This document shows, in pieces, positions 14,057 to 52,714 of a stretch of 64,000 bases of DNA. Under the pieces are notes generated by a model. It did not search any database. It had not been told where the DNA came from and saw nothing but the letters and a program-made list of their open reading frames with translations. Origin of the DNA: Candidatus Abyssobacteria bacterium SURF_17 (GTDB lineage Bacteria > Abyssobacteria > SURF-5); NCBI GenBank assembly GCA_003598055.1, contig QZKI01000013.1, positions 1-64,000 of the forward strand. Direction: 5' to 3'. The first letter of the stretch is position 1. The number at the start of each line of letters is the position of its first letter. The translations under genes were made by a program, and so were the position numbers.

Positions 14057-15466
14057 ATGGACGACCGTATGAAACAATCACTGGACGCGATTTTTCGGCC
14101 GCGTTCAGTCGCGATAGTCGGCGCGAGCAACAACCGCGAGCGCTGGGGCTATGGAACAATGCTTAATATGCTCGAAGCAGGCTACCGCGACACGCTCTAT
14201 CCCGTGAACCCGAACGAACAGCAAGTGCAAGGCGTTCGATGCTACCCGAGCATATCGGACGTGCCGGGAGAAATTGACCTCGCAGTAATCGTGGTGAACG
14301 CAGCCGCCGTGCCAGTCGTGATACGCGAATGCATCCGGAAAAAGGTCAAAGGCGGCATCGTCATCACCGCGGGCTTCGCTGAGGTAAGCACCGAGGGTGC
14401 GGAACTGCAAAAGAGTTTGGCGGAGGAGGCGAAGCAGGCCGGCTTTTACTTCGTCGGACCGAACTGTTGGGGCATCTGGAGCTCCGAGGCCAATGTGAAC
14501 ACGTTGTTCTGGGACCTGCCGCCGAAGGGTCCCATCTCGTTCGTCTCTCAGAGCGGTTCGCTGGGCGAATATCTCTACATCGCGACGCAGAGATGCGGGT
14601 ACGGCATCGACAAGTTCGCCAGTTGCGGCAATCAGGCGTGCATCACTTTCAACGATTTTCTCGAATACCTCGGCGATGACCTGGCCACGCGCGTCGTCAT
14701 CGGATACGTCGAGGATGTCGGCGACGGGCGGCGATTCCTTGAAATCGCGCGCCGCGTATCGGCTGAGAAACCACTCCTCATTTACAAGGCCGGAACCACG
14801 CGAGCGGCGGCCCGAGCGGCCCGCTCGCACACAGCCGCGCTCGTGGGCAACGACAGCATCTTCGACGCCGCATGCCGTCAGGCGGGCGCCATCCGCTGGC
14901 ACGATTTCATGGAAATCTTCGACATGGCCGAAGCGCTCTGCTACCAGCCGCTTCCAAGAGGAAATCGCGTGGCGGTGGTATCATCGGCCGGCGGGTTTTG
15001 CGTGACCGCGGCGGAAGCATGCTCGCGCATGGGCATTGAGCTGCCCGAGATGAGCGACGAAGCACAGGCCATGCTGCGAGGGCACATGCGTGGATTCGCG
15101 CCGCCGCCGGTGAACCCAATCGATTGTATCGCGCGCAAGAGCAATGAATCGTACATCGACATTCTTGATGTTGTCGCGCGGCAGGACTACATTGATGGGA
15201 TAATCGCGACTCCGCATCTGGGCCGGTTCAGCCGAACTACAAAGCCGGAAGACATGATACGTCGCATCAAGCTGGCGGAGTCAATCTCCTCGATTCCCGA
15301 GAGGTACGGCAAGCCGCTCGTTTGCGCGAACGAGCACGAGCTGAAAGGGCCGGTGTACGAGATTTATAAGAGCAAGCACATTCCCTTCTTCGACAATCCG
15401 GGTGACTGCGCCAAGGCGATGTATGCACTCGTGAAATATTCAGAGATACGGAGGCGGAAAGCATAG
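14057..15466 (+). CDS. NDP-forming acyl-CoA synthetase, alpha (CoA-binding/ligase-CoA) subunit
   Basis: 469 residues. The N-terminal CoA-binding Rossmann domain starts RPRSVAIVGASNNRERWGYG. The succinyl-CoA-synthetase-like ligase domain follows, with FVGPNCWGIW and FVSQSGSLGEY. The conserved catalytic histidine is in ARAARSHTAALVGND, near residue 257. A third domain (GNRVAVVSSAGGFCVTAAEA) completes the alpha part of acetate-CoA ligase (ADP-forming) enzymes. The ATP-grasp beta subunit is not fused and is not adjacent. Substrate (acetate, branched or aryl acids) cannot be assigned. GAGGAGAATC precedes the ATG. Confidence 0.85.
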   Translation: MDDRMKQSLDAIFRPRSVAIVGASNNRERWGYGTMLNMLEAGYRDTLYPVNPNEQQVQGVRCYPSISDVPGEIDLAVIVVNAAAVPVVIRECIRKKVKGGIVITAGFAEVSTEGAELQKSLAEEAKQAGFYFVGPNCWGIWSSEANVNTLFWDLPPKGPISFVSQSGSLGEYLYIATQRCGYGIDKFASCGNQACITFNDFLEYLGDDLATRVVIGYVEDVGDGRRFLEIARRVSAEKPLLIYKAGTTRAAARAARSHTAALVGNDSIFDAACRQAGAIRWHDFMEIFDMAEALCYQPLPRGNRVAVVSSAGGFCVTAAEACSRMGIELPEMSDEAQAMLRGHMRGFAPPPVNPIDCIARKSNESYIDILDVVARQDYIDGIIATPHLGRFSRTTKPEDMIRRIKLAESISSIPERYGKPLVCANEHELKGPVYEIYKSKHIPFFDNPGDCAKAMYALVKYSEIRRRKA

Positions 15467-15710: not shown

Positions 15711-16334
15711 TTACGGCGAGAAGCCTTCTGGATCTCTCGTCGCTGACGCGACGCCTTCTTTGCCCGCAAGAAAACGTTCAGCCATGCGTGCGGCCTTCTC
15801 GTAGAAATCGTTTGCGGCATGCTCCCGAACTCTCTCAAGAAAACGCCGGAGCCACGTGAGCACGTGCTCACTCAGGAATTTCTCTTCTGCTTCGCGGCAT
15901 ATCTCGACTGCTCCATAGTTCTCGTCCATCAGCGCGAAGGCTTGTTTAAGCTTGAGATAACTTACAAATGCAAGCTCGATGGCCACGTGGTCGGGAACAT
16001 CCCGCATTTCCTTCGATGTCTCGAATCCGAACGCCCGGTAAAATGCCGCAACGTCTGCAATTATCACTCCTTTATCGCGCACACCGTCATTCTGATAGTC
16101 AGACTCGTAGGGGGAAACATGGCCTCCGCTGCCGAGCACCGCATGATAGGCGGCCTCGCTGCATGAATCCGCAAGGAGAGTAGCCACGGCACAGGCATCC
16201 GCACGCAGCGCGGGCTCGACTTCTTCGAGTAATCCCTGCGCCGCGAGCGCGACCTCGTGCGAAGGTCGGCGGAACAAAAGCGAAAGAAATTTCCAATTCG
16301 CACCGGCTTCGAGCAGTTCCTTCATGCCGCTCAT
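15711..16334 (-). CDS. TorD/DmsD-type chaperone for the molybdoenzyme
   Basis: 207 residues, all helical. KFLSLLFRRPSHEVALAAQG at the N-terminus and SPYESDYQNDGVRDKGVIIADVAA-type central region match redox-enzyme maturation chaperones (TorD/NarJ-like). The motif VPDHVAIELAFVSYLKLKQA is their signature E-hyd-x-F-M/V helix. These proteins bind the TAT signal or apo-form of the catalytic subunit until cofactor insertion. I start at ATG 16334, which overlaps the stop of the gamma subunit gene (ATGA) and follows GGGAGG. A longer frame upstream is just read-through in the gamma gene. Confidence 0.85.
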   Translation of the reverse strand: MSGMKELLEAGANWKFLSLLFRRPSHEVALAAQGLLEEVEPALRADACAVATLLADSCSEAAYHAVLGSGGHVSPYESDYQNDGVRDKGVIIADVAAFYRAFGFETSKEMRDVPDHVAIELAFVSYLKLKQAFALMDENYGAVEICREAEEKFLSEHVLTWLRRFLERVREHAANDFYEKAARMAERFLAGKEGVASATRDPEGFSP

Positions 16335-17224
16335 AACGCGCCTCCCAATCTGAGCGGTACCCATGCGGTGCGCATCTTGCGCGAGCCTGCCTGATTCTGG
16401 CTGCCGTCCCATACCGCGAATGCGGCGAACGTGTTCTGGCCTTTTTGGAGTCCTTCTCCTCCCGGCCACTCGGCGAGCGCAAGCGGGCGGGAAATCACAA
16501 CCGCCCATCGGCCGTTGCCCCACTGAGCCGAGCCTTTCGAGGCCTGCACCGGCAGCGGTTGGAGCGAGCCGAAGCCTTCGGCCCACAGGTCATCAACGCT
16601 GGAAAGCCTCTTTGCGGCCATTGGGTTGCCTGCGGCAAGCCCGACCGCGTATTGTCTCGCCAGACTTTCTTTGTCTTCGCCCGAAGCGGCATCGGACGGG
16701 TAGTGGTCAACAGTTGCGTTTGGGAAGTCTTGCCGGAGACTCCAATCGCCGAGATCAAGAGCGCGCTCGTAGGAAGCTTTCCAGACATGGATGTGCACTG
16801 GAAGGCCCGCCTGTCCCATCGTCGGGTCGGGCACTTCGCCTCCGGCAACCGGCGGAAGCTGAACGGCCACCGCATCGGAGAACCGGCTCCCCTCTTCAAC
16901 CATGTCCTGCGTAACATCCTGCCACTCGATTCGGAAAGCGACCGCAGTATCGTCGCACAATGCTTTTACGCGGATTTCGGCGAGTGTCAAGACGGTCTGC
17001 TTGGGGTCGGTAAGGTCTTGTGGCAACAATGGCACAACAGTCTCGACCGCCCGTTGCCATTCAGGGCTGTCGCATGCGAGTTCACCAATGGCGGCAACCC
17101 CGTAATTCGCGGTTATCCCCTGGGCAGCGGGTACAGACGGCGCCGGCTTTTTCGCACATGCGAACGCAAATAGGAAGATAAGTGTTGCGAATATTGGACA
17201 GAATTTCTTCACATTCTTGCACAT
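16331..17224 (-). CDS. Haem-b gamma subunit of a type II DMSO-reductase-family enzyme (EbdC-like)
   Basis: 297 residues. A Cys-ended signal (FCPIFATLIFLFAFAC) suggests export and possibly lipidation, though the lipobox is not classic. The mature part matches the ethylbenzene dehydrogenase gamma-type fold: VKALCDDTAVAFRIEWQDV, AVAVQLPP, GLPVHIHVWKA, and near the end GNGRWAVVISRPL. In relatives this periplasmic subunit carries one b-haem, with Met and Lys/His ligands, that passes electrons between the beta-subunit Fe-S wire and a c-type cytochrome. I used ATG 17224 (MCKNVKKF). It lies 48 bp after the beta gene and overlaps the chaperone gene. Confidence 0.8.
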   Translation of the reverse strand: MCKNVKKFCPIFATLIFLFAFACAKKPAPSVPAAQGITANYGVAAIGELACDSPEWQRAVETVVPLLPQDLTDPKQTVLTLAEIRVKALCDDTAVAFRIEWQDVTQDMVEEGSRFSDAVAVQLPPVAGGEVPDPTMGQAGLPVHIHVWKASYERALDLGDWSLRQDFPNATVDHYPSDAASGEDKESLARQYAVGLAAGNPMAAKRLSSVDDLWAEGFGSLQPLPVQASKGSAQWGNGRWAVVISRPLALAEWPGGEGLQKGQNTFAAFAVWDGSQNQAGSRKMRTAWVPLRLGGAL

Positions 17225-17272
17225 GATAGTGACTCCTCGATATGAAGACACCCTTCGTATGGAACGATGTCC

Positions 17273-18403
17273 TTACGTCACATTCAGACGCGGCACGCCT
17301 CGTTTAGCATCGAAAGCTGTTCGGACGGTAACCGGCTCGCGAATCGGAACGGTCACCAGTTCTTCCCCTTTGTCGCCCAATGCGGCAACGGTTCCGTCGC
17401 CCACCCTGAAACGGGGAATCACATGACTCGTACAGCCGAACAGGTTAATGAGCGCCGCGAGCTTTTTGTTCTCCGTATGCGCATGTTTATAGCGCTCGAC
17501 TGCCCGCTTTGCGCCCGGGCCGAAGAGCTGCACGAGGAACGGCTCAGGCACGTGAATCGGCGGTATGTAATAGACGTTCGGCTCGAGGCCGAGCTGAGGC
17601 ATGAGCGGAAGCGCCACCTTCTGAACGTGAACGAGATAGTCGATCGGGTTGTCCTCGTTGGCGGCCGAGGGCGTGCTTATCCACCCGCGCAAGCGAATCT
17701 TGCCGATGCACTCCGTGAAGCAGCGGGGCTGAACATCTTGCTCGCCGAGCGGGAAGCAGCCGATGCATTTTTCCGACACACGGGTATGCGAATTGAAGAA
17801 CACCCTCTTATAAGGGCAGGCGCGAACGCATTCGCGGTAGCCACGGCAGCGCTTTTGGTCGACCAGCACGATTCCGTCCTCCGGACGCTTATAGATTGCG
17901 CCCCTCGGGCAGGCAGCAAGGCAAGCTGGATATGTGCAATGATTGCAGATGCGCGCGAGATAAAACATCCACACCGGCTGGGGCAACTCCATAGCCATGC
18001 CGCCGTCGACCGCTCCCACGATTTCGTCTTCTCCGACATTCGGATGAGCGTAATCGGCGGATTCCGGCAGGTAACCGAGAAGCCGCTCGCCGGCCGGAGC
18101 GGCCTCGAAAATCGTGCTTCCCTCGTACCGCTCGCCCTCCCACGGCTGCGGGCCGAGCTTGTCGAGAATCTTGAAATCGTATGCGAGTGGGTAAGAGCCG
18201 TATGGCTTGCTTTCGACATTGTTCCAGAACATATACTCCTGCCCGCGTCCTGATGTCCACGTGGTCTTACACGCCAAGGTACACGTCTGGCACGCGATGC
18301 ATTTGTTGATGTCGAATACGGCCGCAAACTGCCTTTTCGGCCTCGCCTCGCCATACCAGTAACTCATGGTTCGATTGATCTGCCAATTGTAAACTCGTGC
18401 CAT
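17273..18403 (-). CDS. Fe-S beta subunit of the type II DMSO-reductase-family enzyme (NarH/NxrB-like)
   Basis: 376 residues. Four cluster-binding motifs are visible: [12 protein letters not shown] near residue 35, [29 protein letters not shown], and [20 protein letters not shown]. In CRGYREC a Tyr replaces one Cys, as Trp or other residues do in this family, implying three [4Fe-4S] and one [3Fe-4S] cluster (family knowledge). It has no signal of its own and probably travels with the alpha subunit through TAT. The stop of alpha is 3 nt from this start, so they are tightly coupled. Shorter than NxrB proteins, longer than PcrB. Confidence 0.92.
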
Positions 18404-18406
18404 CGT

Positions 18407-21400
18407 TCATTCCCTCTTCGTGACGTATTCACCCGCCAGATAGCGTTTGAATGCATCGCTCTCATATGATGGTCGGATACCAAGCGCCGCCGGGCGCCAG
18501 AGTGCCTGCCCTTCGATTCCGCCCGGCTCGGCCTTCGTGATTTTGACGAATGCCTCGCGCGGAGCGCCCGTGGGGCAGTGGACATCGGGCAAGAACCCTT
18601 TACCGATGGCCTGTCCCGCCAGATCCTTGCGCACGAGCGAATCGGTCATCAGCGTCGGCTTGAGCCAGCCGCGCGTCGCGCTCTGGTGGCTGCCGTAACG
18701 GAACATCGCCTGATAATTCGTCTCGGGATTCTTCGCAAGGCCGTCCGGCCGGGTTTCATGTCCCTTGACCGAGCCCGGCGTGGCAGCATACATGTTGAAC
18801 CACATGCGGGTTATCCCGCGCGGTGTGCCCGGATAGTACCGGGTGCGGCACAACAGGCGCGAGACTTTGTAATCCGGGTCATCAGGTTTCCATCCTCTGT
18901 ACGGGCGGTCTGAGGGGTCGGCGTCCACCCACACGTAGTCGCCGTCTTCGACACCCAGCTCTTTCGCGTCTTTCGGGTTGATATCCACGTAGCCCTCGCC
19001 GACGAACGGCATCCGCTTGTCGCGCCGGAAGATGTCGCCGAACGGCCCGAACAGCACCGCAATCATGTCGGTCTCAATCGGAGTCGTATGCGCTCCATGC
19101 CGATATTTCGGCGTATGGAACACATAGCGATATCCCTTCTCCATGAGTGGGTGCTTTGTCTGTGCGAGGTCGGGCCACGACTTCACGACGTTACGCACCT
19201 GACGCGTTTCCGTGCTTTGGTCGGTGGGGTCAAGCCCGACGTCGGCAGGACCAAGCGGCTTGATAAACGGGCTCGGCTTGGCGACAATCACGTTGGGTTC
19301 GTAAAATGTCGAGTCTATCGGTTCACGATGCACCGGCAGATTCTCGCCGTGCTCGACGAATTCTTTCTCTCCTCGATAGAATTCGAGCCTGCCGGTTTTC
19401 GTGTACCACGGCACGCTCTCCTCGGTCTGTTCGTATCCGACCGTGCGCGGCGTGGTGCGGCCCATCATCAATACAGGGATGCCCTTCTTTGCCTTTTCAT
19501 GCAAGCTCGCGAACGAGTAGCCTGCCGTCGTGCTGCTGTGGTCGAGAATGCGCTGCAGGTACACGCTTGCCCGGTATTCATCCACGAATTTCCAGTAATC
19601 CTTGAACCTTTCCTCCTTGATAAGCTCGCCGATGCGTTTGCCCACCATTGCGATAATCTCGATGTCGCCGCGGGTGTCATGAATCCGCGGGAGCGGCGTT
19701 TCGGGAAACAGCGTGAGAAACGGATTCGTTACCGAGGCCGTCATGTCCGGGTGCTTGATGTCCGCCCATGAATCGGCGGCAAACACGATGTCGGCATGCT
19801 CGCACGACGTCGACCACCACCATTCGTTGACGGCAATCATCTCGATTTTCGGGAGCACGTTGTGCACCACGTTGTAATGCCACTTCACGTTGCCGAGAAT
19901 CGAGTTCGCATTCGCGAACCAGAGCGATTTGGTCGGCGTGGGCATGTGCGTCTTGCCCGTGTAGAGCCGGTCGCCCACGCGCAGCGGATGGTCCTCGTGA
20001 TTATAGTAGTGCGCCGATTCGGCCCGCCAGTACTGCTTCGGGCGGGCGGGCTTCGTAGGGTCAAGCTCGATGTCGAACGGGTTCTCGGCCACGTACTGGC
20101 CCAAGCCATTGAAAAGTGCGACTCGATAGTTGCCGGCGTACGAGCCGACATTGCCCGAGATGCGCCCGACGTTGCCGGTAAGGGCCGCGAGCAGGAATAC
20201 GGCACGATCCTTCAAGTCATTGTTGAAGAACTGATTCGGCCCCATGCCGACGGCCATCAATGTCTTTCCCGGTTGTTTCGCGATGTCGCGCGCGAGCGAC
20301 ACAATTGTCTCGCGAGGAGCCCATGTCATTCCTTCTGCATCCTGCGGCGAGAAATTATCTGCGAGATAATTCTTTATCGCACTGAAGACCGTGGTAACGG
20401 TCACCGTCTTCCCATCAGTGAGAGTGGCACTGAATTTTCCCTCGAGCGCCGGAGACAACTTTGCCTCATCAAAATACCTGCCGACCTGGTCGCGGGTGAT
20501 GGGAACCGGTGCGTTCCGGGTTGTGTCCCATACGACGAAGTCGCCCCATTCCTCTCTCATCTGCAACGGTATGAGTTGTTCGGCTTGCTTGTGGGCGGGA
20601 CCGCTCTTATCCTCGGACTTCAATACGCGCGTCATGTTCTTGAGGTCTGCATTCTTGTAATCCTTGATGATGTCGGAAGCGCGGAGAAGCTCGAGGGTGT
20701 CGTATCGCACAAGCAGCGGCAAATCGCTAAAGCGTTTTACGAATCCTGCATCATAGAGCTTTTCCTGAATGATGACGTTCGAGAGTGCGAGCGCAAGGGC
20801 CGGCGTGGTGCCCGGCCGCACGACAATAGCCTGGTCGGCCTTGTTCGATGTGGCACTGTATTCGCATGCAATCACAACGACGCGCGTGCCATTTACCCGC
20901 GCTTCGGTGAGCCAGTGGGAGTCGGGCATTTTCGTCGTGATCCAGTTCATGCCCCACACGATTACCATGTCGGCATGCTCGCACGAGTTCAGGTCGAACT
21001 CGACGGTCTGTTGGCCGGTGACCATCGGATGACCGGGCGGCAGGTCGGTATGCCACGAGTAATTGTCCCAGCCGCGCCCGCCGAGCACATCTGCTTCAGA
21101 TACGCCGCGGATGTGCTTGTCAAGCATTGCGAGCGAGTTGGCGAAGCGATACATGCCGAACACGCGCGTCATGCCCAACAGCGGCATGCCTCCGCGAAAC
21201 TTCAGGCATTGCGTGCCCGCGCCCTTCGTCGCCTGTATCATCTCGTCGTCGTATCCTTGTGCCTTGAGCCGCTTGGAGCCCTCGTTGCCAGCATAGGTCT
21301 GCGCGATATTAATGAGAGAGCGCGCAGCGAGGTCGGCAGCCGTCTCCCACGAAACCTGTTCCCATGAATCACGGGCGCGATTGAAGAATTGCACAGGCGG

Positions 21401-21883
21401 CTTGCCGGTATTAGGGTCCCGAGGGAATCCCCCTTCAACCCATTCACGGAACCCTTTGCGCACCATCGGCCCCTTGACACGCCGGTCTCCGTAAAACCGC
21501 CGTGTGAGCGCCAGTCCCTTTTGGCAGCAGCGCGGGTCCCAGCGGGCGGAAGCCTTGTTGCCGTAAAGGTCCTCGGCTTTGCCGTAGCCGTACGTCGCTC
21601 CGATGCGCACGACCACGCCGTTCTTCACATATGCGCGGAGCAGGCAGTTGTGCGTGTCATTCGGCGCGCAGAGAAACGTGTACGTGCTATCCGGCTTGAG
21701 CAGGTCGCGATACACTTTTTCCCAGTCGCGTTCGGGATAGAATTCCAGCGGGTTCTGCGCGCCCTCGGCCCACAGCCACGGATACTGGGCGAGGTAGCCG
21801 GCAAATCCTAATGCCGATGCCGCCCGCAAGAACTCGCGCCTGTTTATCGCGCTCTTTTCCTTCGCACTGTTATTGTTTTTCAT
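18407..21883 (-). CDS. Catalytic molybdopterin alpha subunit, type II DMSO reductase family (NxrA/pNarG branch)
   Basis: 1158 residues from ATG 21883 (GGAG 8 nt upstream). It has a twin-arginine signal ([19 protein letters not shown]), so it is exported folded. The FS0 cluster region reads [18 protein letters not shown] with a late RCCQKG. The Mo-ligand Asp lies in [19 protein letters not shown], equivalent to the NarG Asp. Further signatures are [20 protein letters not shown] and [16 protein letters not shown]. Length and motifs fit nitrite oxidoreductase and periplasmic-facing nitrate reductases better than the ~920-residue chlorate, selenate or DMS enzymes. Substrate and direction remain unproven. 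Followed at once by beta, gamma and chaperone genes. Confidence 0.88.
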
Positions 21884-21913
21884 ACTCCTTTCTCCTGACG
21901 AGGTCATTGCATT

Positions 21914-24247
21914 TCAAGGTTGCTCAGACAACGAGCGGATGTAGCGGACAATGTCGCTCGCCTCTTGCGCGCTCAGCTTTGGATAACCGAGGTTCTCGCT
22001 CCCGAATGCAGGCATGCCCGCCGAGAGGCGACCTCGAATGATTGACGCTTGCAGATAACCGTCGGTGGCAGCCGCCAGAAATGCGGTATTTGCAAGTTCG
22101 GGCGCGGAACCACCGAGACCTTTTTCACCGTGGCAGCCCCGACATGTTCGTGCATAGAGAATTCCGCCTTCTGACGCGTCGCCGAACGCAGGCCGTCCGG
22201 GAGGTGTGACAGGGTTCATTCCGATTCGCTCCCGGAGATATTCGATTGCATCCGCGAGTTCCTGGTCCAAAACGATAGGCACCGTGACGCCCTCAGGCGC
22301 TCCTTGCGGCGGAACGCACCGGCCGCGCTGAACAGCGGCAGCCATGAAGCCGTCAGACGCCGAATCAAGGAAAGCCGGCGCTATCAGGCTCACCGCAAGC
22401 CTTCCTTCGCCGCGTGCGCCGTGACACGGAGAGCACGATCGCGCAAACACCTGTTCACCCCGCCTGAAAGACCGCTCTGTGGGCAGAGAGGGTAAGCTGA
22501 GCGGCTTTTCTTTCGTCCAACTCATGATGTAGCCGATGATTGAAGCGGCTTCGGCCGAATTGAGTGCGCGCTGGCTGCCCATGGCCGTATCTTCGCGACC
22601 GTCCATGAGCATGCGATAGATGAAATCTGACTCCACCGTTCTTAGGAACACCTGGTTCGAGAGCGCCGGGCCGATGTCGCCCTCTCCCTTCTCGCCATGA
22701 CAGATGGCGCAGTTTTCGTCGTAAAAACGCTTGCCCACTTGCAGGTCCGGCGTCATGCGCGCGATTGCCGCACGAGAAGTTGCCGGAGGTTCCAGCGAAC
22801 GGAGGTAGCGCACCAGTTCATCCAGTTCCTCTACCCGTAGGCCGCCCTCCTTGGTTCCCCAGGCAGGCATCCGGCGTCCGGGGCGTCCGTCGAGCAGCGT
22901 CTGCCGGATAAAGCGGTCTGATGCCACTGCCAAGAACTCGGGGTGCGTAACCGCAGGAAAAGCCTGCTGTGAAATGCCGAACCTGATGCCGCCCCCTTCG
23001 CTTCCGTGACAGGAACTGCAGAAGGTCTTGTAAAGCGATTCTCCGTCGGTCGCGAACTCGCGCACGCCGAGGCGTCTCGCCTCGAGCCTGTCCGGAGGCC
23101 AACTGCTCACCGGCATGTCGTTGCCCCGCAGCGAGAGCATATACAGCGTAACAGCCTCGAGTTCCGTCTCAGTAAGGGTTGGCTGCGGCATCTGGCTGTT
23201 GGGGACAACGAGACCCGGGTCACGCAGGTGCGCCTTATGCCATTCAGCGAGATTATGAGTACCCGGGATATGGGAGAAATCCAACAGGGCCAGGTTCTTT
23301 TTCCCGGTACTCGACAGGTCCGGCCCATCGTCGCCGCCGACGCCGCCTATTCGATGGCAGCCGGGACAACCCTTCTCAAACACCGTAGCCTTCGCCTGAA
23401 CGAGCTTTGGCGCGCCCACGAGTTGTCGGAGATAGGCATTTATCGCTTCAACATTCTCAGGTTCGAGCGGCCCGTAACTCTCCCGCCAAATCTCTTCATC
23501 GCTCCGTTTTTGGAGCGACAGATGCCTCTCGTGCCAGTCCGGCGGAATCTCCGTCGTCCCGATAAAGGAAAGGTCGGGACCGTTGCCGCGACCCCGCCCA
23601 TTGACCCGATGACACGCAAAGCAATCATTCCGCTCAAACTGGCGTGCGCCCCTCTCGGCAAAGCCTCCGCCGGAAATCTTCAAGTAGGCGTGGCAACTGC
23701 CACACCCGGCTTCGTAGTAGCCCGCCGGAATCAGAGGGTCCTCCCAGTGAGGCACGTGCCCGTGAGCGTCCTCGGTGGTCGTAGCCAATCCTTGGCCCCC
23801 ATGGCAAGGAGTGCAGCCCAATTGCTCCGCCGGATGCATCTCGAACACCCACGCCGGATGCGACCGAAACGGCTGCTCCTGCGCCGCCATGGCAGGGTCA
23901 TCTATGCCGAGATGGCAGGTTGTGCACCGGTCAGCCACGTCATAGTGGGCCAGAGTAATCTGTTTGATTTCCCGCGGAAACCGCGGCGATTTCTTGCCCG
24001 AGCCCTGTGCTGTCGAAGCGAGCAGGCTCGCAAACTGACGCTGATACGTGCGCCATGGTTTGAGGTAATGTTCAGCGATGATGGCTGCCAGCAGGCATGC
24101 CAGCGTAATCAACGAAGTCGTTAGCAGCGCCCAACGCGCTCGTCGCCCGCCTGGCGTGACGGGGTCGAACGTAGGCACGGGAACAGCGGCAGGCGTCTCC
24201 TCAGGCCCGCTCTCCGCGCTGCGGTCTTCCCTTAATGAATTGGCCAT
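21914..24247 (-). CDS. Membrane-anchored nine-haem cytochrome c
   Basis: 777 residues. ATG 24247 (MANSLRED) follows GGAGTCGGAGCC and overlaps the end of the cytochrome b gene by 16 bp. One N-terminal helix (LLTTSLITLACLLAAIIAEHY) anchors it. I count nine CXXCH sites in order: CTTCH, CTPCH, CGSCH, CFACH, CPGCH, CSSCH, CAICH, CSPCH, CRGCH. The first three form a multihaem N-terminal part. The last four sit in repeated class-I-like domains of about 100 residues, each ending with a Met-containing loop (for example GRRMPAWG, SAGMPAFG). It probably carries electrons between the Rieske/cytochrome b complex and the molybdoenzyme (inference from gene order). Confidence 0.9.
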   Translation of the reverse strand: MANSLREDRSAESGPEETPAAVPVPTFDPVTPGGRRARWALLTTSLITLACLLAAIIAEHYLKPWRTYQRQFASLLASTAQGSGKKSPRFPREIKQITLAHYDVADRCTTCHLGIDDPAMAAQEQPFRSHPAWVFEMHPAEQLGCTPCHGGQGLATTTEDAHGHVPHWEDPLIPAGYYEAGCGSCHAYLKISGGGFAERGARQFERNDCFACHRVNGRGRGNGPDLSFIGTTEIPPDWHERHLSLQKRSDEEIWRESYGPLEPENVEAINAYLRQLVGAPKLVQAKATVFEKGCPGCHRIGGVGGDDGPDLSSTGKKNLALLDFSHIPGTHNLAEWHKAHLRDPGLVVPNSQMPQPTLTETELEAVTLYMLSLRGNDMPVSSWPPDRLEARRLGVREFATDGESLYKTFCSSCHGSEGGGIRFGISQQAFPAVTHPEFLAVASDRFIRQTLLDGRPGRRMPAWGTKEGGLRVEELDELVRYLRSLEPPATSRAAIARMTPDLQVGKRFYDENCAICHGEKGEGDIGPALSNQVFLRTVESDFIYRMLMDGREDTAMGSQRALNSAEAASIIGYIMSWTKEKPLSLPSLPTERSFRRGEQVFARSCSPCHGARGEGRLAVSLIAPAFLDSASDGFMAAAVQRGRCVPPQGAPEGVTVPIVLDQELADAIEYLRERIGMNPVTPPGRPAFGDASEGGILYARTCRGCHGEKGLGGSAPELANTAFLAAATDGYLQASIIRGRLSAGMPAFGSENLGYPKLSAQEASDIVRYIRSLSEQP

Positions 24248-25788
24248 TGGCTCCGACTCCAATAGAAGTTCCAATTCGGGCCACGATGCACGGTGGCGAC
24301 ATAGGTGAGAATTATGAATGCGACGAAGAAGCACGTAAACAGCGCAATCGCACCGGCTCGCGTCGAGTTGCACCGGTTCATGACAAACAGCGACCACGCA
24401 GCGAAGACCGCGACGAAAACAGTGCCGGGATTGAATGCAATGATTATCAATTGCGGAATATCCGGAAACCAGTTTCGAAGCCAGCCGAACTGAATCGTGA
24501 ACGCCAGCAGCGCGACCACGACGGCGCCGCCGAAGACAGCGCTCTGAAGAACAACACGCTTATGTCCTTCACCCGCACACCAGAGGCCGCCGTTGTCTCG
24601 CTCGCGGTCGAGGAAGGGAATGAGTCCGAGGCCGAGGAGCACGAGCGTCGGGATTCCGATTCCTCCCATGAACGCAGAATACGAGACGAGTTCCTGCAGG
24701 CCGAGGAAATACCACGGCGCCTTCGCCGGATTCTCCGGACGCGATGGATTCGCAAGCTCTTTGAGTGGAGCATCGGCGATAAGCGCGAGCACTAAAGCAA
24801 TCGCGCACGTTGCCATCAACACCGCCATCTCAGCGAAGAAGGCATTCGGCCATGCGGTCACCGTATTTTCTTGCCCCCGGTCAACATGGGGTGTTGTTCC
24901 GCGAACGAGCGCCATGAGCCCATATGTTTTCTCGGGGGCGGGCTTGAAAGAAACCATCTGCCCCGTGAGCAGCCGCACGGGCTCGCCCGGCTCGTCCGGC
25001 GGGCGCGCGAGACCTCCGTCTTTCCGAATCCGCCAGAAATGCACGCCGATGAATGCGGCGGTCAAGAGCGGCAGCACCATCACATGCAGCAGATAGAACC
25101 GCGTGAGCGCCTCCTGTCCCACCGTATCGGCGCCGAGCAAAAGCCGTTTCTGCAATCCGCCGACATCGAAGAAGCGTGTGATACCGAGCGCGTCGGTCAC
25201 CTCGCGAGGGGATTGCGCGATGTTCGAGCCGATGGTTATCGCCCAATACGCCAATTGGTCCCACGGCAAGAGGTAGCCGGTAAAGCTCAGCCCGAGGGTG
25301 AGAACGAGGAGCGCCATGCCGACCAACCAGTTGAACTCGCGCGGTTTCTTGTATGCGCTCGTATAGAACACGCGGGCCATGTGGAGGAACACCAGCCCAA
25401 CCATCAAATGCGCCGCCCATCGGTGGATATTGCGCATGAACTGACCGGTGGGCACCACGAAGTGGATGTCCTTGATCGATTGATACGCTGCGTCGGTCGT
25501 CGGCTTATAGTAAACCATGAGCAAAATGCCCGTGACCGTCAAAACGAGGAAACTCGCAAAAGCGCCTACACCTACTCCGCACGTTGCCCAGAACCTGAGA
25601 CTGCGCTCATGGATGCGCGTCGAGTGGATGTGCAGAAAAAAATTCGCGAACACCGCCTGCGAGCGCGTGCGGTCGGTATCGGGCTTCCCGTGCCGGAAGA
25701 TGGCATCGCGAAGCCGCGCGGGCGCCTGGCGAAGATTCTCGATGAACGCGCCGAGCGCGGACTGTTCAGGCGGAGCCATCGTAGCCAT
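24232..25788 (-). CDS. Cytochrome b of a Rieske/cytochrome b complex
   Basis: 518 residues with about ten hydrophobic helices: a b6-like half fused to a subunit-IV-like half plus extra C-terminal helices. Haem ligands are in NIHRWAAHLMVGLVFLHMAR and in FYLLHVMVLPLLTAAFIGVH. The quinol-site motif appears as KAPWYFLGLQEL (PEWY equivalent, with Ala-Pro instead of Pro-Glu). The enzyme transfers electrons from (mena)quinol to Rieske and to the low-potential haems. The gene lies 8 bp after the Rieske gene and overlaps the nine-haem cytochrome gene. The C-terminal extension (FNPGTVFVAVFAAWSLFVM) is not in short cytochrome b6. Confidence 0.92.
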   Translation of the reverse strand: MATMAPPEQSALGAFIENLRQAPARLRDAIFRHGKPDTDRTRSQAVFANFFLHIHSTRIHERSLRFWATCGVGVGAFASFLVLTVTGILLMVYYKPTTDAAYQSIKDIHFVVPTGQFMRNIHRWAAHLMVGLVFLHMARVFYTSAYKKPREFNWLVGMALLVLTLGLSFTGYLLPWDQLAYWAITIGSNIAQSPREVTDALGITRFFDVGGLQKRLLLGADTVGQEALTRFYLLHVMVLPLLTAAFIGVHFWRIRKDGGLARPPDEPGEPVRLLTGQMVSFKPAPEKTYGLMALVRGTTPHVDRGQENTVTAWPNAFFAEMAVLMATCAIALVLALIADAPLKELANPSRPENPAKAPWYFLGLQELVSYSAFMGGIGIPTLVLLGLGLIPFLDRERDNGGLWCAGEGHKRVVLQSAVFGGAVVVALLAFTIQFGWLRNWFPDIPQLIIIAFNPGTVFVAVFAAWSLFVMNRCNSTRAGAIALFTCFFVAFIILTYVATVHRGPNWNFYWSRSQWPIH

Positions 25789-25796
25789 GCGACCTC

Positions 25797-26264
25797 CTAT
25801 ACGCTCAACTTTGTTCCCGGCGGAACGTTCGTCTGTGTGTCGATCACCAACTGACCATCAGGCGCCAGCCCGACCTCAAGCCACGGCAGCGCCGAGGGCG
25901 CGGGACCTCTCGTTACTTCCCCCTGAGAGTCGAATCGCGAGCCGTGACAGGGGCAATCGAAACCGGCTAAAGTCTGCGAGACGATGCAGCCCAGATGAGT
26001 ACAGATACCCGAGATAGCGTACACGCCCGCGTCATCGCGGAAAACGAAAGCGCGAGCCGACGCAATCCATCGCCCCGGCCCGGGCGCCAAATCGTCCGGC
26101 CGCCCGACCTTGACCGCGCCGGCTTCGCCTGCAATGACCGCGGGAAACGGCAGCCGGGCCATGCCGACAGTAGCCAGGCCCAGCGTGGCCCCGCACGTCC
26201 ACATGGCCGCCTTTCCGAGGAAATCCCTTCGCTGGATCGGCTGGGGTCTTCTCAGGTCGCTCAT
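25797..26264 (-). CDS. Rieske [2Fe-2S] protein
   Basis: 155 residues. A TAT-type N-terminus ([20 protein letters not shown]) tethers the protein, and the two cluster boxes are CTHLGC and [12 protein letters not shown], with Cys/His ligands all present and the usual disulfide Cys. I use ATG 26264, which overlaps the stop of the upstream FAD oxidoreductase gene (ATGA); a longer frame would reach back into that gene. It forms the quinol oxidation site together with the next gene. Confidence 0.95.
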
Positions 26265-28174
26265 GATATCGCCTCCCGGAAGCAGAAACGCTCCATCGTG
26301 ATCGCGCCCGTCGGACATCGCTGGGCGCAGCATGCGCACCGGATGCATTTCTCTTCATCTTTAATAATCGCCGAAATCTGCGCTCCCGGCTCTTGAGTTG
26401 AAATGTGCTTGATGAGGCTGCGCAGCTCGTCATCCTGTTCCAGGCTCTCCGGTGATACGAGCCGCAAGCAGAGCGTGGGGCATACGTCCGCGCAGCCTCC
26501 GCACAACACACATTTCTCGGAATCGAAAATGGTGTTGACGCCGCAGTCGAGACAGCGCGACGCTTCCCTGAGCGCCAGTGGTTGGGAATAGCCGAGCTCA
26601 ACGCTCACGTCGTGGCCGCGCAGCCGCTCCTTCGCGTCGGTGATCGGAATGTACACGCGTGCAATTCGCTCGTACCCTTTCTCACGCTCGTACCCGACGA
26701 GATTGATGTGACAATCGAACGCGCTCGTCTCAAGGCTCCGACCGGTCAGATAGGCATAAACAGAGCGCGCCGCCCTCTTGCCGCTCGCAATCGCGGATAT
26801 CATCAGGCCGGGACCATGCGCAACATCACCTGCGAAAAAGACGCCCTCGGCCGTGCTCGCGAGTGAATCGGGGTCAACGGTAGGTATTCCGCGCTCGCTC
26901 ACCTCGATGCCGTGGAGCTTCGGGTCAACGAAGGAAAGGTCAGTGGATTGACCGACTGCCAGAAGAACGGTGTCACAGTCGATGGTTGTAAGAATTGTGG
27001 GGTCAAATTGCGGTGAAAAACGCTTCTTTTCATCGTAGACGCGGAGCACTTTCTGGAATACCACGCCGGTCACCCGGCCCTGCTCATCGCGGAGTATCTC
27101 CTTCGGCCCCATGCTGTTATGCAGCAGGATACCTTCTTCAGCGCCCTCGACGATCTCAACGTCGTCGGCAGGCATCTCCATGAGCGATTCAAGGCAACAC
27201 AGGTGAGCCTGTTCCACGCGAGGCTGACGCAGGGCGGTGCGCGCCATATCGAAATACGCCTGGCGGAGCACCGTCCGGGCGACGTCGTATGCGACGTTCC
27301 CGCCGCCGATGACAACTATGCGCCTGCCGAGTTCCACGGGATTGCGGAGCGCGACATCTCTCAGGAAATCCACGCCTCCCATCACGCCCGGTCCCTGCAC
27401 CCCGGGAATCGGAAGGCTCCGTGAGCGCTTGGCGCCGACTGCGATTACGACGGCGTCATATTCGGCCCGCAGTTCATCAAATGATACGTCCTTGCCGACC
27501 TCGACTCCGCATCGAATCTCGACGCCGAGCGATTCGATAACACCTACTTCGGCGCGGATCACATCGCGCGGCAACCGATACTCGGGCACCCCAGCATACA
27601 GCATGCCGGCGGGCACCGGCTCCATTTCCAAGATGACGGGCTTTATGCCGAGCAAGGCGAGGTCATGCGCACACGCAAGCCCTGCCGGCCCCGAGCCGAT
27701 GATTGTCGCTGTGGGCGCAGCATCGCCGGACACCGGCGACCGCTCGAGCAGCCAGCGAAGCTCGTCCCGCACTTCACAGAGTTGCGGCACCACTCGCTGA
27801 GCAAGCCATTTCTTGAAGTAGTCCCCCTCCAGCTTCCACGTTTCGGGACCGAATTGCTCTGTCGCAAACCGCTTGAGCGCGCGAATGGCAATCGGACGGT
27901 CAACCGACCCGCGCCTGCAGTTGACCTCGCACGGTGCGCCGCAGATGCGTCCGCAGAGAGAGGCCAGCGGATTCGGCCCGCGCGCAATCAGGTAGGCAAG
28001 CTCATAATTCCCCGCTGCGATTGCGCGCACGTATCCGCGCGCATCGGTATGAACGGGGCAGGCATCCTGGCAGTTGATCAATCTGCGCCAATAGGCGTGG
28101 TCGGGAATCCGGACCGCGAAGCCGGAAGCCTTCTTCACGTGCTGCGTCTGTTCTCTGTCGCTGTCCTGGTGCAT
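26261..28174 (-). CDS. GltD-like FAD/NAD(P) oxidoreductase with ferredoxin domains
   Basis: 637 residues. An N-terminal Fe-S region ([18 protein letters not shown] and [16 protein letters not shown]) leads into two Rossmann folds: FAD-binding [19 protein letters not shown] and NAD(P)-binding [19 protein letters not shown]. The C-terminus has [23 protein letters not shown] and [16 protein letters not shown], two more [4Fe-4S] motifs. It resembles the small subunit of glutamate synthase and other electron-input modules, but no gltB is present. As first large gene of the Rieske/cytochrome b operon it may exchange electrons between NAD(P)H or ferredoxin and the complex on the cytoplasmic side. 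Similar genes sit beside Rieske/cytochrome b genes in anammox bacteria (from memory). Confidence 0.9.
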
Positions 28175-28278
28175 TCGTCAGACCGCAAAGAGGAAAGAGG
28201 CGCTACACGCCTCAGTTACGGGTATGTATGCCTTAGTATTTCCTGAAAAAGCTTTTTGGGCAAATACAGGGAGAAGCA

Positions 28279-28695
28279 CTATGCCCTCTTGAATTGCCTG
28301 CTGAACATGTCCAGCGTGATGCTTCGATACAACTCACGTGTCTGCTCCTTAATCTTGTCGAGCTGCCTTCGTATCTTGCATCGCTGGAACAAGCGGCATT
28401 GCTCCCCCGGCCCAAGCTCGCATCGACCGGTAACAACGGGTCCGTCAATCGCTTCCACGATGTCGAGCAAACTGATTTTTTCCGGCTCGGAAGCGAGAAG
28501 ATACCCCCCCTGAGGACCCCGGCGGGAATAAACCATGTGACTGCGGGCGATTCTCTGGAAAATCTTCGCCAGATATCCTTGGGAAACCCCCAGTTCTTTG
28601 GCGATTACCGAAACGTCCACGGGGGAGCGGTCGCTGTTATCGGCGAGATAGGCGAGTCCGTGAATGGCAGTCACAGAGGCCTTCGATATTTCCAT
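28279..28695 (-). CDS. Rrf2-family Fe-S transcriptional regulator
   Basis: 138 residues. The winged helix reads VSVIAKELGVSQGYLAKIFQ with the wing RRGPQGGYLLASEP. Three Cys follow in the loop GRCELGPGEQCRLFQRCKIR (C-x7-C-x5-C), the spacing seen in Rrf2 proteins that hold an Fe-S cluster (IscR, NsrR, RirA types). It lies 104 nt upstream of the respiratory operon in the same direction, so it is the obvious candidate to sense redox state, NO or iron and control it. A perfect-spacing promoter and a tandem repeat precede it. Confidence 0.93.
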   Translation of the reverse strand: MEISKASVTAIHGLAYLADNSDRSPVDVSVIAKELGVSQGYLAKIFQRIARSHMVYSRRGPQGGYLLASEPEKISLLDIVEAIDGPVVTGRCELGPGEQCRLFQRCKIRRQLDKIKEQTRELYRSITLDMFSRQFKRA

Positions 28696-28740: not shown

Positions 28741-28769
28741 ATTATAGCCACCACTTTATTATTTGTCAA
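28741..28769 (-). promoter_or_regulatory. Consensus sigma-70 promoter of the Rrf2 gene
   Basis: Minus-strand TTGACA (28764-28769), 17-bp spacer and TATAAT (28741-28746), all matching consensus. It could serve the downstream respiratory genes too, since no clear promoter is seen in 28175-28278, where only a small GAGGCG...CGCCTC hairpin (28197-28213) is visible. Confidence 0.8.
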
Positions 28770-51820: not shown

Positions 51821-52714
51821 GTGAAGAGCTTAATGGCTCTGTCCGTTGTCGCACTGGTCCTGGTGATGGGGTGCGCCACGGACCAATCAAAGGAGATTGC
51901 TCAACTGAGGCAGGAAGTAAGCGATCTGAAGGTTCTGGCTGGCCCGCCTCCCACGTCCCTGGACACGTTGTATCCCCCTGAGGCGGATGCGCCCGTCTAT
52001 CAGATAAAGATGTTTGAAATGGAAGCCCCGTTTACGGGCATCGCTATCGAGACGGGCAAGGGAAACTTTGAACTAGCCAAGGCGTACTTTGAAAGGTTCA
52101 GGACACAGTATCTGGAAGTCTCGAAGATGGTGCCCGAGTGGGAAAAGGAGTACCCTTTGGAGCCGGTTGAGCAGCTTGGGGCATCGCTTGAGACCGGGGA
52201 GCAGGACAAGATAATGGCGGCATTTGGGGCGGTCGCCGGGGCGTGCAATGACTGCCACTTCCTCAACATGCCCAAGGTACAGCAGAAGTATCACTGGGAA
52301 GATTGTTCCGGAATCATGGTGTCAGACCCGGTGACAAAGGAAAACGTGAAATATAGCCAGTTTATGGTGAATCTGAACGTGTCCTTCGTCGGTATCGGAT
52401 TGGAACTTGAGCAGGGACAGCCGGATAATGCTCTGAAGCACTTTGAAGCGCTCAACAGCAGGTATCAAACCTTGAAGGAAACCTGCGGAGCATGTCATCA
52501 GACGGAGAGGGAGTACTACGTTGACGATAACGTGCAGGCACTCATAAATACGCTGGGAGCAACGCTGAGGACTTCGTCTCCGGATACGAACTCGGTACGA
52601 ACATTGAGCCAGCAGATTGGAATGGAGAGTTGCATGAAGTGCCATTGGCTGCATATCCCCGCGACATATGCTAAGGCTCAATGGAACGAGAGAAAACAAG
52701 GCGGAGAAGAATAG
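51821..52714 (+). CDS. Triheme c-type cytochrome lipoprotein
   Basis: 297 residues from GTG 51821 (AAAGGAG upstream). Lipobox VALVLVMGC then ATDQ. Three CXXCH haem sites: CNDCH, CGACH and CMKCH, in a helical scaffold (DNALKHFEALNSRYQTL). The first half has a repeat of the FELAKAYFERF / DNALKHFEALN type, hinting at internal duplication. It would sit on the periplasmic face of a membrane. It follows the methyltransferase by 33 bp; whether they are linked functionally is unclear. Confidence 0.85.
   Translation: MKSLMALSVVALVLVMGCATDQSKEIAQLRQEVSDLKVLAGPPPTSLDTLYPPEADAPVYQIKMFEMEAPFTGIAIETGKGNFELAKAYFERFRTQYLEVSKMVPEWEKEYPLEPVEQLGASLETGEQDKIMAAFGAVAGACNDCHFLNMPKVQQKYHWEDCSGIMVSDPVTKENVKYSQFMVNLNVSFVGIGLELEQGQPDNALKHFEALNSRYQTLKETCGACHQTEREYYVDDNVQALINTLGATLRTSSPDTNSVRTLSQQIGMESCMKCHWLHIPATYAKAQWNERKQGGEE

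Follow-up and report, generated by a model that had tools for sequence, protein, structure and literature searches.

A conserved operon joining an NAD(H)-type flavoprotein, a Rieske/cytochrome b module and a predicted periplasmic molybdoenzyme of the NXR/Nar group in Candidatus Abyssobacteria SURF_17

The nitrate reductase NarGHI of E. coli is a cytoplasmic type II molybdoenzyme with a histidine-ligated FS0 cluster, and its membrane subunit is the diheme cytochrome b NarI rather than a Rieske/cytochrome b (R/b) complex. Other arrangements have been described: in Caldithrix abyssi a Rieske/cytochrome b complex feeds an outward-facing Nap, a different molybdoenzyme (PMC5317091), and in haloarchaea (NarG with NarC; PMC8301774) and Methanoperedens (PMC5244752) a Rieske/cytochrome b or bc1-type cytochrome b serves an outward-facing archaeal Nar, although the accessible parts of these three papers describe no FAD/NAD module. 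Kuenenia stuttgartiensis has two clusters (Kustd1480-1485 and Kuste4569-4574) in which Rieske protein, cytochrome b6, subunit IV, a GltD-like NAD(P) subunit and a multihaem cytochrome c stand together; they are tied either to an HAO-like protein or to no enzyme at all, bifurcating NAD(P)H formation has been proposed for them with fitting energetics, and one of the two lacks a suggested acceptor reaction (PMC12954380). Finally, Thermogutta terrifontis is reported to grow anaerobically with nitrate and to have NrfAH; in its 2017 description a complex III was noted beside a nar cluster whose enzyme was called a cytoplasmic NarGHI, and the accessible parts of that paper do not mention the FAD gene of the cluster (PMC5673643).

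Here we analyze an operon of Candidatus Abyssobacteria bacterium SURF_17 within a window of 64,000 nucleotides, the whole stretch of DNA considered, from a genome that is 92% complete. An earlier note made from the sequence had presented the operon as the strongest candidate in the window for an undescribed respiratory system. This can be sustained only in part, given the T. terrifontis complex III and the FAD–R/b relatives in Kuenenia; nevertheless, we found no description of the full operon, FAD subunit included, in the open-access journal literature searched.

Layout of the operon

All nine genes that the earlier note had read as running in one direction with several overlaps are present in the proposed order on the minus strand, from 28695 to 15711, and are tightly coupled:

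28741..28769, minus strand: candidate promoter-like site TTGACA-17-TATAAT upstream of rrf2, 12/12 match to the sigma-70 consensus
28279..28695, minus strand: Rrf2-family Fe-S regulator (PF02082, E=1.4e-31)
28197..28213, minus strand: stem-loop with T-rich tail in the rrf2/fad gap, a possible attenuator or terminator
26261..28174, minus strand: GltD-like FAD/NAD(H) oxidoreductase, four Fe-S motifs, clusters at both the N- and the C-terminal end (Pyr_redox_2, Fer4_20, Fer4)
25797..26348 (likely true start 26264), minus strand: Rieske [2Fe-2S] protein (PF00355)
24232..25788, minus strand: cytochrome b6 and subunit IV as one fused protein
21914..24247, minus strand: membrane-anchored nine-haem cytochrome c (nine CXXCH motifs)
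18407..21907, minus strand: catalytic alpha subunit, type II DMSO-reductase family, Mo-bisMGD enzyme of the NXR/Nar clade
17273..18403, minus strand: beta subunit with four Fe-S clusters (TIGR03478 match below cut-off)
16331..17251 (likely start 17224), minus strand: gamma subunit, haem-b (EB_dh) protein and predicted periplasmic lipoprotein (PF09459, E=2.6e-23)
15711..16334, minus strand: TorD/NarJ-type chaperone, delta (PF02613, E=1.5e-18; TIGR03482, E=3.5e-22, under cut-off)

The operon is real. The FAD/Rieske and gamma/delta genes meet at ATGA junctions, the cytochrome b and cytochrome c genes share a 16-bp overlap, and most remaining junctions are gaps of 3-8 bp. The spacing before gamma is 21 or 48 bp depending on the choice of start codon, and that between rrf2 and the FAD gene is 104 bp and holds the stem-loop and T-rich tail. 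Gene order and identity had thus been read correctly, but two boundaries had not, as delta starts at 16334 rather than 16586 and the Rieske gene most likely at 26264, at its ATGA junction. Terminator-like sites are no more frequent in the region than expected by chance (16 versus 14.5 in shuffles), and the stem-loop that follows rrf2 would still permit transcription in separate units.

The molybdoenzyme and the spread of the gene order

The alpha subunit is predicted to be a periplasmic molybdoenzyme of the NXR/Nar group. It is about 42% identical to Kuenenia NxrA (PDB match 7b04_B, 956 bits, E=1.9e-286), carries a Tat signal of the RRxFL type (RREFLRA), and matches the KsNXR ligands C67, N70, D71, C75, C115 and D275; its FS0 site is formed by three cysteines and one aspartate (CAPNDTHNC...C), and the Mo ligand Asp275 and the substrate residue Asn70 are identical in the window, Thermogutta and sampled relatives. 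The beta subunit has 15 cysteines that are at least 98% conserved in the orthologue alignment and scores 262 bits against TIGR03478 (cut-off 480.7). In gamma, C32 is conserved in 100% of orthologues, and the conserved M145 and K292 align with the residues that bind haem in gamma proteins of the NXR type. The Mo aspartate, Asn70, FS0 aspartate, Tat export and gamma Met/Lys pair expected of the periplasmic NXR/Nar group are therefore all present; Mo and FS0 ligands, Tat export, beta Fe-S clusters and gamma ligands are shared with NXR of the Kuenenia/Nitrospira type (7b04, PMC8387239). As the earlier note had said, a diheme NarI-type subunit is absent from the operon, gamma belonging to the EB_dh family PF09459. 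Membership in NarGHI itself was rejected, with a TIGR01580 score of 152 bits (cut-off 1084), NarG as outgroup in the tree and no NarI.

The phylogenetic placement that the earlier note had called for puts alpha, together with Beggiatoa-type nitrate reductases, in a clade that is sister to the NXR of anammox bacteria and Nitrospira (support 100/100 for NXR and 100/99 for the window's clade), rather than inside the true NXR clade formed by NxrA of nitrite oxidizers and anammox bacteria; the EbdA-like enzymes of the window's own family are distant. Tree and ligands together narrow the substrate to nitrate or nitrite, and of the broad list proposed earlier only these two are retained. Chlorate, perchlorate, selenate, dimethyl sulfide or a hydrocarbon would be a highly improbable substrate: the enzymes for these are likewise of type II and have a haem-b gamma, yet PcrA and EbdA score only 192 and 157 bits against alpha in the PDB search, and the NXR-specific FS0 aspartate and N70 (Ile in EbdA) are conserved.

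Alpha subunits with FAD–Rieske–cytochrome b–multihaem c genes directly upstream form a single group (support 100/99). This gene order occurs in 46 of the 49 clade loci with sufficient upstream DNA to be informative, and these span several phyla, mainly Acidobacteriota and Planctomycetota, so that chance can be dismissed as its cause. An rrf2 gene is found upstream in 19 of the 46 full operons, and in these Rrf2 C92 and C106 are conserved. In T. terrifontis R1 (THTE_1506-1512) the order FAD–Rieske–cytochrome b–multihaem c–alpha–beta–gamma–chaperone is identical, with 66% identity to the window in alpha, 63% in cytochrome b and 57% in the FAD protein, although no rrf2 was found directly upstream there. 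The nearest relatives without the R/b genes are periplasmic nitrate reductases of the Beggiatoa type (L077, Parabeggiatoa 4572_84), whose alpha is 59-60% identical and which lack the module upstream, and no R/b genes adjoin the two NXR-clade loci that were read (L101, L102).

One may postulate that the two halves are merely neighbors, the first encoding a quinol:cytochrome c oxidoreductase for general use and the second a nitrate reductase of its own, supplied by a soluble cytochrome. The three clade loci lacking the R/b module (L022, L040 and L061), the Beggiatoa-type relatives that do without it and the possible terminator after rrf2 are in keeping with such independence. We nevertheless consider it very doubtful, given that overlapping and ATGA-coupled genes continue across the junction, that the linkage persists in nearly all informative loci of several phyla, and that the window's genome encodes further R/b complexes, which could cover general respiration.

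The FAD–Rieske–cytochrome b module and its cytochrome c

Alignments show that the FAD–Rieske–cytochrome b module and the R/b complexes of Kuenenia are homologous. The earlier suggestion that a dedicated FAD/NAD module raises the possibility of bifurcation is upheld. Over about 620 amino acids the FAD protein is 35-36% identical to the NAD(P) subunit of either Kuenenia R/b complex, and its Fe-S cysteines are at least 98% conserved across 46 orthologues. The best PDB matches of the Rieske protein (9rk4/9rk3) are of the Kuenenia R/b type; its ligands CTHLGC...CPCHGS are invariant in the 46 orthologues, the serine is present, and phenylalanine replaces tyrosine, as in Kustd1480. In the same orthologues cytochrome b conserves His122/136/235/250, and His53 and R255-K256, 100% conserved, align with H43/R247 of Kuste4571 and H62/R266-K267 of Kustd1481. 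The interface-haem histidine, the Arg/Lys and the KAPWY motif are thus common to the window and Kuenenia, and the window's cytochrome b stretch NPAKAPWYFLGLQE is identical to that of both Kuenenia complexes.

There are also differences, beyond the linkage here to a molybdoenzyme. Cytochrome b6 and subunit IV are separate in Kuenenia but fused in the window, and the c_N haem cysteine and the NADPH-type motif 'YRR' of Kuenenia are both missing. The c_N column holds no cysteine in any of the 46 orthologues (Gly in 42), so that the low-potential branch differs from Kuenenia's, and 'YRR' is replaced by the NAD-type 'LE' in 44 of 44 readable orthologues. Cys70 of cytochrome b was discarded as a c_N ligand (4% conserved), as was membership in the ExtP/ExtQ cytochromes b of selenite/tellurite operons (ExtP 241 versus a cut-off of 290 bits, ExtQ 52 versus 150).

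In the cytochrome c, alignment shows four N-terminal haems followed by five class-I-like domains. The nine CXXCH motifs noted earlier hold for the window but are not general, as 40 of 46 orthologues, like T. terrifontis, have seven; seven is the usual number and the nine-haem type a lineage form. An AlphaFold2 model (pLDDT 77) has an N-terminal helix at 32-60 and low confidence around haems 1-3, and placement of partners on it was dropped because the tetrahaem region was too uncertain.

Electron flow, direction and host physiology

We infer that the operon probably encodes a periplasmic nitrate reductase (alpha-beta-gamma) with a dedicated quinol-oxidizing R/b–NAD(H) complex in place of NarI, working reductively; the proposed role of Rieske/cytochrome b and multihaem c as the quinone connection is thereby upheld. 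The gamma lipoprotein would anchor alpha-beta-gamma to the membrane, and quinol would be oxidized at the outer (Qo) site of the Rieske/cytochrome b complex. The flow would then bifurcate: one electron would pass from Rieske through multihaem c, gamma haem b, the beta Fe-S clusters and alpha FS0 to Mo and nitrate, whereas its partner would cross haem bP, haem bN and the extra interface haem and reach NAD+ by way of the cytoplasmic subunit, with its Fe-S clusters and FAD. Net NADH production by this route is plausible, though we place it somewhat below an even chance; the alternatives are a simple Q-cycle and the oxidation of NADH by the FAD subunit.

NADH oxidation deserves separate mention. 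The FAD subunit could oxidize NADH and feed the b haems or quinone, with electrons passing through R/b and multihaem c to nitrate and no NADH made. The NAD-type 'LE' suits a catabolic NADH donor, the energetic span is large and exergonic, and the version of the module joined to a cbb3 oxidase (CcoN/CcoO), present as a second copy in two Acidobacteria, can equally be read as an NADH oxidase chain. We regard this as rather unlikely, because complex I usually does this job, the retained interface-haem His and Arg/Lys fit the path proposed for NAD(P) reduction, and a Rieske/Qo site is superfluous in simple NADH oxidation. It is a variant of the bifurcating scheme, leaving enzyme and direction unchanged and giving the flavoprotein the opposite role.

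Enzymes of the NXR group are reversible, and we know of no residue or sequence mark from which the direction of nitrate/nitrite turnover could be read. In nitrite oxidizers, electrons classically run backward through bc complexes, and the enzyme could in principle oxidize nitrite to nitrate, with electrons driven uphill by the pmf from multihaem c through R/b to quinone and NAD+. The sister position of alpha to true NXR agrees with this, as do the haem-copper oxidases of operon hosts outside the window's family and a RuBisCO-family protein in 5 of 19 genomes searched; NXR has also been favored for related planctomycete enzymes (PMC10732223). However, searches of the window's genome and of the two other members of its family yielded no haem-copper oxidase above cut-off, no RuBisCO was found in that family, and the cbb3-linked copy of the module would only be able to pass electrons outward to the oxidase. 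Moreover, the sister enzymes in Beggiatoa are termed nitrate reductases, the accessible account of Thermogutta describes a nitrate reducer with NrfAH (PMC5673643), and NrfA was found in T. terrifontis and many other operon hosts. Nitrite oxidation, which the earlier note had listed as an option, is therefore the less likely direction, and its reverse-flow form quite unlikely. Neither NrfA nor NirK was found above cut-off in the window's family, and an HAO-like multihaem protein of about 455 amino acids is a weak candidate nitrite sink.

More tentatively still, the preferred reductive scheme may be realized in one membrane supercomplex, in which part of the quinol electrons would go to nitrate in the periplasm and part to NAD+ in the cytoplasm. 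The unit of FAD protein, R/b and multihaem c would then be an interchangeable module, found also on cbb3 oxidase and HAO-like enzymes and, in an FAD-less form, beside EbdA-like enzymes.

In many Acidobacteriota and Planctomycetota the operon couples a relative of the Kuenenia R/b–NAD(P) module to an enzyme for which nitrate is the obvious high-potential acceptor, and its occurrence in a pure-culture organism, T. terrifontis, makes the proposal directly testable. If the bifurcating path is correct, NADH would be made directly by nitrate respiration. Metagenomic 'nxrA' matches in Acidobacteriota and Planctomycetota may represent nitrate reducers rather than nitrite oxidizers.

Operon layout, conservation and precedents

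All nine genes claimed in the earlier note were confirmed, on the minus strand and in the layout described: rrf2, a GltD-like FAD/NAD(H) subunit (fad), Rieske, cytochrome b, cytochrome c, alpha, beta, gamma and the chaperone delta. The nine haems proposed for the c-type cytochrome likewise agree with a count of nine CXXCH motifs. The cytochrome b and cytochrome c genes overlap by 16 bp, most remaining junctions are gaps of 3-8 bp, and ATGA overlaps occur as follows:

26264, minus strand: ATGA overlap of FAD and Rieske genes
16334, minus strand: ATGA overlap of gamma and delta genes

The longest gap, 104 bp between rrf2 and fad, contains a stem-loop, and a sigma-70 consensus (12/12 match) lies upstream of rrf2. 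The operon's downstream neighbour, on the opposite strand, encodes an ADP-forming acetate-CoA ligase alpha-type protein (14057-15466); elsewhere in the window, a protein with weak cytochrome c'/multihaem matches adjoins an O-methyltransferase (51821-52714).

The gene order, which the earlier note proposed to follow across related genomes, proved conserved. Among 80 related loci from GTDB genomes, 49 in the Rieske/cytochrome b (R/b) clade had enough upstream DNA to judge, and 46 of these carried FAD, Rieske, cytochrome b and multihaem c upstream of alpha (the set was missing upstream in L022, L040 and L061). Hosts of the 46 complete loci were Acidobacteriota (32), Planctomycetota (11), Verrucomicrobiota (1), one labelled Poribacteria and one unclassified; the cytochrome c has seven haems in 40 of them, and nine in the family to which the window belongs and in a few of its relatives. 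In even samples, alphas with an identity of 63% or more occurred in 13/294 Planctomycetota and ~21/297 Acidobacteriota genomes (counted from match lists).

Passages in earlier papers remark on "Complex III next to Nar" in Thermogutta (PMC5673643) and propose Rieske/cytochrome b as feeder of nitrate reductase in Caldithrix (PMC5317091) and Methanoperedens (PMC5244752); for haloarchaea, the role is proposed for NarC, a cytochrome b of the bc1 type (PMC8301774). No description of the whole operon including the FAD subunit was found in the literature searched, which excluded subscription journals and preprints.

Identity and location of the molybdoenzyme

The window alpha scored 956 bits against Kuenenia nitrite oxidoreductase (NXR; 7b04), 192 against perchlorate reductase and 157 against ethylbenzene dehydrogenase, and its alignment retains every one of the Kuenenia residues C67, N70, D71, C75, C115 and D275 (named in PMC8387239). 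In an IQ-TREE phylogeny (39 rows; a second tree of 102 rows gave the same picture), alpha fell outside the NXR clade. It lies within a clade of R/b-linked enzymes (100/99) that groups with Beggiatoa-type enzymes (100/99), this larger group being sister to the NXR clade holding Kuenenia (100/100; G148, taken as Kuenenia from its 99.1% match to 7b04). Planctomycete NxrA-like enzymes have been reported with reaction direction left undecided (PMC10732223). Plasmid 2 of Natronococcus occultus (L106, NC_019976.1, 114873-118351) also carries an alpha of the window enzyme's group (49-50% identity), with no gene listed at the matching position and the region of the first ligand of FS0, the Fe-S cluster of alpha, outside the frame read.

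The gamma subunit, a haem-b protein of the EB_dh family, has conserved Met145/Lys292 and an invariant N-terminal Cys typical of lipoproteins. Because of these lipoprotein features and the Tat signal of alpha, the enzyme is predicted to be periplasmic.

The quinol/NAD module

The top PDB matches of the Rieske protein were 9rk4 and 9rk3, which we take to be Kuste4569 and Kustd1480, judged by their sequences and PMC12954380. The Kuenenia clusters read Rieske-FAD-b-subunit IV-6 haem-8 haem (L137) and Rieske-b-FAD-subunit IV-8 haem (L136). The window FAD subunit is 35-36% identical to both over ~620 residues, and the window cytochrome b shares the four b-haem His, the His of the proposed new interface haem with its adjoining Arg-Lys, and the block NPAKAPWYFLGLQE, but lacks the cysteine that binds haem c_N. 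The second notable difference is in the FAD subunit, where an acidic "LE" replaces the "YRR" of Kuenenia; in Rossmann folds such a motif generally favours NAD over NADP.

Electron flow and the host family

Thermogutta terrifontis carries the complete operon and an NrfA confirmed here; in the passages concerned, it is described as growing anaerobically with nitrate, the operon being listed as a Nar system alongside NrfAH (PMC5673643). Full-length NrfA occurs in many further operon hosts. Neither haem-copper oxidase above cut-off nor RuBisCO was found in the genome that holds the window or in two others of its family. In two Acidobacteria, a second module copy encloses cbb3 subunits in a single run, Rieske-cyt b-7-haem c-CcoN-CcoO-FAD (L114, G051:C271; L140, G050:C8, with rrf2 directly upstream); here the R/b–NAD module is linked to cbb3 oxidase, an enzyme that can serve only as electron acceptor. 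Together these observations favour, without proving, electron flow outward to nitrate.

In the published scheme, one electron of menaquinol (~-70 mV) passed to a high-potential acceptor can pay for transfer of the other to NAD(P)+ (-320 mV; PMC12954380). Here nitrate would be that acceptor, the second electron reaching NAD+ through the R/b complex; nitrate (+420 mV) leaves more energetic room than nitrite to NO (+380 mV). We consider it probable that nitrate is reduced through the dedicated R/b complex; that the complex makes NADH in the process is a more tentative proposal. A ~455-aa HAO-like multihaem protein common to the family (G000:C24:21010-21747, G001:C78, G002:C133; G000 being the window's genome) is a weak candidate for a nitrite reductase.

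The family has a further R/b cluster, in which b6, subunit IV, a cytochrome c with 8 haems and a protein of ~1050 residues, of beta-helix type in G001, are joined to an EbdA-like type II alpha-gamma-beta-chaperone set. Its alpha was found in G001 (L110) and G002 (L111, with a Zn-alcohol dehydrogenase upstream), and the G000 contig stops before it (L108). This cluster is possibly a unit for anaerobic hydrocarbon or alcohol oxidation. Near relatives of G000 comprise only three genera of one family, the remaining relatives matching at domain level only, so the host may belong to a deep lineage that has been little sampled and lacks haem-copper oxidase; one related MAG is labelled Candidatus Poribacteria. 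Since the second R/b cluster adjoins an EbdA-like enzyme, R/b complexes seem to be a common electron gate of periplasmic type II enzymes in this family.
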